Below, one piece after another: positions 44,094 to 44,903 of a DNA stretch of 45,561 nt. A model generated the notes under the pieces. The model saw only the letters and a list, made by a program, of their open reading frames with translations. It ran no database searches and was not told where the DNA came from. The number at the start of each line of letters is the position of its first letter. Within the stretch, counting starts at the first letter, position 1. The stretch is from Patescibacteria group bacterium. Its GTDB lineage: Bacteria > Patescibacteriota > Minisyncoccia > Minisyncoccales > PEYH01. Location of the stretch: the NCBI GenBank assembly GCA_018900835.1, contig JAHIFQ010000008.1, positions 1 to 45,561 on the forward strand. Reading direction: 5' to 3'. The position numbers and the translations under genes are program-made.

Positions 44094-44151
44094 GCCTCTA
44101 CAAGGAAGTATTTTATAATTAAGACACATTATTAATTTATATGAGAACCTT

Positions 44152-44191
44152 AATTTCAAGGTTCTGCGAGCGAAGTGAGCAGGTTCTTATA
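44152..44191 (+). repeat. 40-bp direct repeat, copy 1
   Basis: This 40-bp stretch (AATTTCAAGGTTCTGCGAGC, then GAAGTGAGCAGGTTCTTATA) recurs without a mismatch at 44217-44256. Just upstream AGAACCT (44144-44150) can pair with AGGTTCT inside this copy (44159-44165) or with the second AGGTTCT at its end. Confidence 0.9.
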
Positions 44192-44216
44192 ATTTTTAAT
44201 TTATTTGATTTCATAA

Positions 44217-44256
44217 AATTTCAAGGTTCTGCGAGCGAAGTGAGCAGGTTCTTATA
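44217..44256 (+). repeat. 40-bp direct repeat, copy 2, joined to the tRNA
   Basis: Identical to copy 1, 65 bp downstream of it. Its last base is position 1 of the intron-containing tRNA, so the repeat forms the immediate 5' leader that RNase P would remove. Confidence 0.9.
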
Positions 44257-44592
44257 GCGGGGTAGAGAAGTAGTATCTCGGGGGTCTCATACTCAAAGTG
44301 TGACCCAGGACAGTAATGTTCTGTGGAAAATTCCCTAAATTGCTGGAAAACCATTAGAGCTTCTTTTACAACAGCGTAATTCGAAAGGATAGGCGCGATT
44401 GTTTGAAAAAAAAGAAGATTTGGCAATCAGCAGCCAAGTCCAGCACATAATCTATGTGCTGAAAAGGTTCAGAGACTATAATGGGAACTCCACACATAAT
44501 GTTTTATGCGCGGAGATGGTATAGTCCATTCTTCTTGGAAACAAGAAGTATAATAGAAGCCCCAGACACCCGTGCAATTCGGGTCCCCGCGA
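44256..44592 (+). tRNA. Intron-containing tRNA(CAU), initiator-like
   Basis: Exons 44256-44290 and 44557-44592 fold as a cloverleaf: acceptor AGCGGGG/CCCCGCG with an A1·G72 mismatch, D stem GAGA/TCTC, anticodon stem GGGGT/GCCCC (last pair U·G), loop CU-CAU-AA, T stem ACCCG/CGGGT. A 1-72 mismatch is the mark of bacterial initiator tRNA; tRNA-Met elongator with CAU lies nearby. The anticodon CAU is at 44288-44290 and the intron follows its last base. Two features are unusual: the D loop (AGTAGTA) has no GG, and the T loop reads TGCAATT, with G at position 55. CCA is not encoded. Without intron knowledge the tRNA would be missed. Confidence 0.85.
44291..44556 (+). ncRNA. Group I intron in the tRNA anticodon loop
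   Basis: All core helices are visible in 266 nt. P1: exon GGGTCTCAT (44282-44290) with GTGTGACCC (44298-44306), giving the required U·G at the 5' splice site and one mismatch. P3: TTCCC (44331-44335) with GGGAA (44483-44487). P4: TGCTG (44341-44345) with CAGCA (44428-44432). P7: GACTATA (44474-44480) with TATAGTC (44520-44526). P8: CTCC with GGAG (44488-44515). P9: CTTCTT (44531-44536) with AAGAAG (44543-44548). The intron ends in G44556. The conserved AATCAGCAGCCAAG and GTTCAGAGACTATA segments suggest an IC3-like type. No endonuclease gene is present. Confidence 0.9.
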
Positions 44593-44736
44593 CATTAGAA
44601 AAAGTTAATGAGCTTTAGCGAATTTATTTTTTGTTATGTCCTGAGGAGAGAAAACGACGAAGGACTTCATTTTTAGAGTATAGTTTTTCACTCTGTTAAA
44701 GACACAAGAGGGCGTAAATTAATTACATTATTTATT

Positions 44737-44809
44737 GCCGGTGTAGCTCAGCGGCTAGAGCAGAGGAATCATAATCCTTGTGTCGGGGGTTCGAACCCCT
44801 CCACCGGCA
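44737..44809 (+). tRNA. tRNA-Met(CAU), elongator type (or Ile2)
   Basis: Cloverleaf: acceptor GCCGGTG/CACCGGC, D stem GCTC/GAGC, anticodon stem GAGGA/TCCTT, loop AT-CAT-AA, T stem GGGGG/CCCTC around TTCGAAC, discriminator A. A paired 1-72 base pair makes it non-initiator. CAU may be Met or lysidine-modified Ile2; sequence alone does not settle it. CCA is not encoded. It stands 144 bp after the intron-containing tRNA; that gap holds no gene I can see. Confidence 0.9.
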
Positions 44810-44822
44810 TAAAAACGAATTT

Positions 44823-44896
44823 GGGGGCGTAGATCAATTGGTTAGATCGCATCCCTGTCACGGATGAGGTTGCCGGTTCGAGTCCGGTCGTCCCCG
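44823..44896 (+). tRNA. tRNA-Asp(GUC)
   Basis: Cloverleaf: acceptor GGGGGCG/CGTCCCC, D stem GATC/GATC, anticodon stem CATCC/GGATG, loop CT-GTC-AC, T stem GCCGG/CCGGT around TTCGAGT, discriminator G73 as expected for tRNA-Asp. It is 13 bp after tRNA-Met and is closed by a terminator. Confidence 0.95.
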
Positions 44897-44903
44897 CAAA
44901 AAC

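Follow-up and report, generated by a model that had tools for sequence, protein, structure and literature searches.

Which tRNA starts translation in a bacterium whose only detectable initiator gene is broken in two? The question is raised by the window, by which we mean the whole stretch of 45,561 nucleotides analysed here (contig JAHIFQ010000008.1 of a Patescibacteria group bacterium, order Minisyncoccales). A preliminary description, made from the letters of the window, had placed a 266-nt group I intron directly after the anticodon of a CAU tRNA and supposed that such a gene would escape simple tRNA finding.

A group I intron splits a CAU tRNA gene

The tRNA(CAU) gene at window positions 44256-44592 consists of two exons around a 266-nt group I intron. 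A cmscan search of the window gives an RF00028 match at 44278-44548 on the + strand, complete over model positions 1-253, with a score of 87.9 bits (gathering threshold 50) and an E value of 3.2e-21, so that the covariance-model check suggested for the locus comes out well above its cut-off. In the congener G002 the 71 nt of the joined exons (44256-44290 plus 44557-44592) are present unsplit and 100% identical, which therefore sets the intron borders at 44291-44556 (266 nt) and the insertion point immediately 3' of anticodon base U36; length, coordinates and site had all been given correctly. The G002 initiator stands at the head of the same fMet-Met-Asp cluster and, in the order also seen in the window, is followed by a CAU tRNA and then by a GUC tRNA. 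Given the joined exons, ARAGORN returns a complete cloverleaf called tRNA-Met(CAU), which bears out the proposed CAU identity. In the window it detects tRNA-Met at 44736 and tRNA-Asp at 44823 and does not detect the unspliced gene at 44256-44592, as had been foreseen. The tRNA features are as follows.

44256-44290, + strand: 5' exon of the initiator tRNA (positions 1-36, ending in anticodon CAU); unsplit copy in G002, A1/G72, A11-U24, cloverleaf
44557-44592, + strand: 3' exon of the initiator tRNA (positions 37-73; CCA not encoded); G002 empty site, pairs in all loci with the 5' exon on the other side of the intron
44736-44810, + strand: elongator tRNA-Met(CAU), the sole other CAU tRNA found; ARAGORN, RF00005 64.4 bits, elongator-like G1-C72 and C11-G24
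44823-44897, + strand: tRNA-Asp(GUC), third in the conserved fMet-Met-Asp cluster; ARAGORN, Rfam, identical order in G002

Just ahead of the gene, at about 44150-44257, the window holds aatttcaaggttctgcgagcgaagtgagcaggttcttata in two copies, the second of which reaches the tRNA 5' end.

Identity of the split tRNA

Bacterial initiator tRNAs lack a strong 1:72 pair and have R11:Y24 and three G-C pairs at 29-31:39-41. The split tRNA has no standard 1:72 pair (A1/G72) and carries R11:Y24 as A11-U24; in the anticodon stem G29-C41 and G30-C40 are present, but the third pair is U31.G39. We take this U.G, which recurs at 31:39 in 10 of the 20 intron-bearing loci, as a tolerated deviation because the other initiator features, and the finding of no other initiator gene, agree. 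The anticodon CAU is common to initiator, elongator Met and Ile2(CAU) tRNAs, so that the gene might be read as tRNA-Ile2(CAU) or as an elongator tRNA-Met, but with its nonstandard 1:72, its A11-U24, its conserved place ahead of the elongator Met and Asp genes, and a tRNA-Ile(UAU) in the same genome that makes a tRNA-Ile2(CAU) unnecessary, we consider this scarcely conceivable and reject the Ile2 identity. Replacement of tRNA-Ile2(CAU) by tRNA-Ile(UAU) has been described (PMC8450103).

An fmt gene was not found in the window's genome by a search that was positive in 12 of 14 control genomes, and the initiator may therefore be used unformylated. Together with the Cys, Pro(CGG) and Thr(GGU) tRNAs of this genome, the initiator has G at T-loop position 55 and lacks the usual D-loop GG, possibly a joint change of the 18-55 contact.

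Structure and conservation of the intron

The insert has a core score above the Rfam cut-off, a U.G wobble in P1 and a terminal omega-G (G44556), as expected of a group I intron. Introns of subgroup IC3 (bacterial tRNA introns) have a small core that lacks P7.1/P7.2, and P2 and P9 each end in a GNRA loop; the P2 and P9 loops here are GNRA-like as read from alignment A2, which comprises 20 homologous intron-bearing loci and is the basis of the pairing and covariation figures given with each element.

44291-44556, + strand: group I intron, 266 nt, without notable ORF, omega-G at 44556; RF00028 87.9 bits, G002 empty site, omega-G invariant in 20 loci
44287-44303, + strand: P1, exon U33 C34 A35 U36 (44287-44290) with guide G44300 U44301 G44302 A44303, U36.G at the 5' splice site; paired in 20/20 loci
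44307-44322, + strand: P2 hairpin (44307-44311 / 44318-44322) with GNRA-type loop; 98% paired, compensatory changes in 5/5 pairs
44331-44487, + strand: P3 (44331-44335 / 44483-44487); 100% paired, both-side changes in 5/5 pairs
44341-44432, + strand: P4 (44341-44346 / 44427-44432) and P5 (44351-44353 / 44421-44423) with the P5 extension between; P4 100% and P5 96.6% paired, Rfam alignment
44441-44461, + strand: P6 hairpin; 93% paired, 6/6 pairs covary
44474-44526, + strand: P7 (44474-44479 / 44521-44526), the guanosine-binding helix, enclosing P8; invariant in 20 loci
44488-44491 / 44512-44515, + strand: P8, within P7; 96% paired, 4/4 pairs covary
44531-44548, + strand: P9 hairpin with GAAA (GNRA) loop; 99% paired, 5/7 pairs covary

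Across the 20 loci 92.6% of 1001 intron helix cells are paired, both sides have changed in 29 of 51 pairs (none of 500 shuffles is as high), and there are 152 double-sided changes against a mean of 45 in shuffles and at most 31 in slid controls, while the four stems of the spliced tRNA, including the anticodon stem whose strands lie on opposite sides of the intron, are paired in 400/400 cells with 99 double-sided changes; as the A2 sequences are related to each other, all of these numbers measure constraint and not independent events. The U36.G wobble at the 5' splice site is found in 20/20 loci, and the P1 guide, either GUGA or GUGG, pairs with U33-U36 in 100% of them. A first register for P1 (GGGUCUCAU with GUGUGACCC) was dropped, being 67% paired and failing in many relatives, in favour of the fully paired U33-U36/GUGA. 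Covariation links position 33 of the tRNA to the final base of the guide (U-A in 14 loci, C-G in 6), so that the intron tracks a U33 to C33 change of its host tRNA.

U33 is nearly universal in tRNAs; many initiator tRNAs of the order carry C33 instead (L076, L077, L078, L207 and others). A separate observation concerns host family f33 (L222, L221, L219 and L220, from G134, G190, G077 and G219), where the fMet intron has in its P1 loop a sequence resembling a T arm, for example CCCCGTGCAATCCGGGG or GCCTCGTGCGATTCGAGGC, with stems that in most cases are unlike the host's own T arm.

The split gene is the only initiator found

The window's genome (G000; 654,511 bases in 20 contigs, rated 100% complete) has 46 tRNA genes in all, the split initiator included. 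There are 45 good RF00005 matches, ARAGORN on the fetched stretches gives 45 different tRNAs that cover all 20 amino acids, and BLAST of the joined exons against the genome matches the two halves of the split gene and nothing else. The search for a second, intronless initiator that the preliminary description recommended thus returns none in the assembly, and as far as the assembly goes the split gene is the organism's only initiator tRNA. Exactly one exact match to the initiator pattern is present in 31 of 32 genomes, all 21 intron-bearers included; G003 has none.

The assembly of G000 is in 20 contigs, and the congener G003 indicates that gaps can swallow this gene; the split copy might then be a decayed pseudogene, with the work done by an intronless initiator that fell into a gap. 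We reject this very improbable reading, as the exons equal the intact G002 gene, the 400 tRNA pairs are all kept in the homologues, P7, the U.G wobble and omega-G do not vary, and a second initiator gene is seen in none of the 21 genomes with the intron.

Proposed splicing

Taken as a whole, the locus is with high confidence best explained by an intact, ORF-less group I intron in the only initiator detected, which would be spliced out in the steps given here and would in the past have been mobilised by a gene that flanks it in relatives. The steps follow known group I chemistry. The intron would fold within the precursor and its guide GUGA (44300-44303) would pair with the anticodon-loop bases U33-U36; guanosine bound in P7 would cut after U36, and the freed 5' exon would join A37 beyond omega-G44556 to yield a 71-nt initiator tRNA, to which CCA would be added afterwards. 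We infer splicing from the sequence and its conservation, and if it proceeds as proposed, all translation starts would hang on the removal of a selfish intron. Standard tRNA finders would list the initiator as missing.

Some group I introns depend on helper proteins, and the present one might likewise need a protein cofactor, or be removed by a protein enzyme, instead of self-splicing. We think this unlikely, as the core is compact and complete and, with its GNRA loops on P2 and P9, resembles that of self-splicing tRNA introns, and there is no potential maturase ORF within the intron.

Distribution and flanking genes

The intron is found at the same initiator site in 21 of 247 genomes of the order by a split-initiator pattern, confirmed on the sequences. 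Some matches to the pattern (for example G119, G028 and G010) turned out to be intronless. The distribution is patchy; in the window's own family G000, G001 and G004 have the intron and G002, G005, G006, G007, G008 and G009 do not. No further split initiator was found outside the order in 380 genomes of the phylum with this pattern, which is tuned to the order's D-loop. The empty site in G002 and the 20 divergent homologues together amount to a clean natural experiment in which gain and loss of the intron can be followed. Two genomes (L072 of G094 and L074 of G053) have extra partial initiator copies beside an intact intronless gene, in the form of a 5' half fused to a hairpin or of a copy that lacks the 5' acceptor strand.

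The genes seen downstream of split tRNAs in relatives are of three types. Type A is an ORF on the same strand, about 226-243 aa long, with a helix-turn-helix in its N-terminal part; type B encodes a LAGLIDADG_3 protein, and type C (in G145) one that is weakly LAGLIDADG-like. Counting loci with at least 800 bases downstream, with intronless initiator loci fetched as controls, 11 of 19 intron-bearing genes have type A next to them, as do 10 of 122 intronless ones (Fisher p 2e-6). For the three types together, just 3' of the tRNA, the counts are 14/19 and 15/122 (p 7e-8), although the type A figure is the cleaner one, since the definition of types B and C came from loci with the intron. The association persists when intron and flanking gene are permuted within families (p 1e-4; stratified odds ratio 27). 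The window itself has no flanking HTH/LAGLIDADG-like gene; in G219 the gene is reduced to a 69-residue piece, as decay would predict.

Type B passes Pfam LAGLIDADG_3 in G004 and G200 with 59.0 and 37.6 bits (cut-off 22.5). In type A, Pfam recognises the HTH only; in an hhalign profile comparison with the type B LAGLIDADG_3 group, the HTH and a LAGLIDADG-like stretch align at 62% probability. A fold search of the PDB with an AlphaFold model of type A (pLDDT 84) gives nothing at or below E 0.001, and tblastn finds no match to the protein in phage and plasmid records. These comparisons weakly suggest that type A is LAGLIDADG-like, and it is a putative nuclease; the flanking gene of the relatives is probably a DNA-cutting mobility gene. 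Such a gene would have mobilised the intron, and in places may still do so, by cutting intronless alleles, and would have been lost from the window's lineage.

A different history, in which the intron is an old, vertically inherited possession of the order and the HTH gene has nothing to do with its spread and just favours tRNA gene ends, is a real possibility, if a somewhat doubtful one. The intron tree, poorly resolved and with no transfer visible, tends to bring together introns of one host family and not those that share a flanking-gene type, a pattern consistent with descent that was for the most part vertical, accompanied by losses; the HTH family, moreover, also adjoins other, mostly intronless, tRNAs. 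Against a purely vertical history stand the strong association of intron and flanking gene, within families too, and one subclade of the fMet protein clade in which 8/8 proteins, from five host families, all lie beside intron-bearing tRNAs.

A family of genes anchored at tRNAs

A type A profile built from the fMet-linked copies scores these at 328-385 bits and all other copies at 205 bits or less in 24 genomes (fMet loci: L108, L197-L253). When 20 non-fMet paralogue places were fetched (L346-L365), two of which, in G000, had already been noticed before sampling, 18 had an ARAGORN tRNA gene, and the remaining two (L348 and L365) adjoin a tRNA that we read by eye as Asn(GUU), split by an insert. 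Paralogues therefore adjoin tRNA genes in 20/20 places, against a roughly estimated 1-2% (within 100 bases, 46 tRNAs, 650 kb). In the 18 with an ARAGORN tRNA, ORF and tRNA usually lie 0-20 bases apart or overlap by 10-15 bases. At both split tRNA-Asn(GUU) genes the HTH gene lies just upstream; the insert in L365 (1-640, G084) is a group I intron with 84.2 bits, and that in L348 (1-640, G195) gives no match above the Rfam threshold. In L075 (G047), too, an apparent tRNA-Asn(GUU) has its anticodon loop interrupted by a group I-type insert.

The protein tree requires 8 changes of tRNA label where the minimum is 7 and shuffles give 20, so that clade tracks tRNA identity. A tentative reading, to which we give slightly less than an even chance, is that the intron belongs to a tRNA-parasite system of the order, in which HTH/LAGLIDADG-like clades, each largely specific to a single tRNA (fMet, Gln, Lys, Gly, Glu, Ile or Asn) and with genes flush with or overlapping it, home on tRNA genes and carry group I introns at fMet and Asn. 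The flanking family suggests a so far undescribed way for selfish DNA to address individual tRNA genes in Patescibacteria.

Relation to known systems

The preliminary description had compared the insertion site with that in tRNA-Ile(CAU) of Azoarcus, whose intron is small and ORF-less and has GNRA loops in P2 and P9. The likeness holds for these features and for the CAU host, but the host tRNA here is an initiator, apparently single-copy, and the closest published parallel is instead the tRNA-fMet intron of cyanobacteria. Group I introns in tRNA-fMet are reported for Synechocystis PCC 6803 and Gloeobacter violaceus (Biniszkiewicz 1994; Bonocora and Shub 2001; both as cited in PMC8450103 and PMC3984707), and the tRNAscan-SE authors explain a missing fMet or Ile2 gene by group I introns in 36 genomes, naming fMet for Synechocystis and Gloeobacter (PMC8450103). 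As in the window, these are group I introns in the anticodon loop of an initiator, missed by standard finders; the phylum differs, and the likeness considered here is one of host tRNA and loop. The kind of intron is therefore not new, and the newer part is the flanking gene in relatives.

For that gene the nearest precedent is the collaborative homing of a cyanophage psbA intron with a free-standing endonuclease (Zeng 2009, as described in PMC3984707). Both cases combine an ORF-less intron with a free-standing, here putative, endonuclease gene nearby; unlike the psbA system, the candidate partner in the relatives, proposed from linkage, is an HTH/LAGLIDADG-like protein at a tRNA gene, and the gene is missing in the window. 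A literature search that covered few subscription journals found nothing published for Patescibacteria on split tRNAs or on endonuclease-like genes anchored at tRNAs, and the tRNA-anchored gene family may be new.

From the same bacterial radiation, group I introns with LAGLIDADG endonucleases have been reported in rRNA genes of CPR bacteria (PMC11270868, which deals only with rRNA and whose main text is without tRNA). The 23S and 16S genes of the window's own genome also carry inserts: the 23S gene spans 6.4 kb (G000:C15, L048 3696-10123), a large insert interrupts the 16S gene (G000:C1, L049 2699-5210), and group I matches scoring 55.5 and 30.2 bits fall within these 23S/16S regions.
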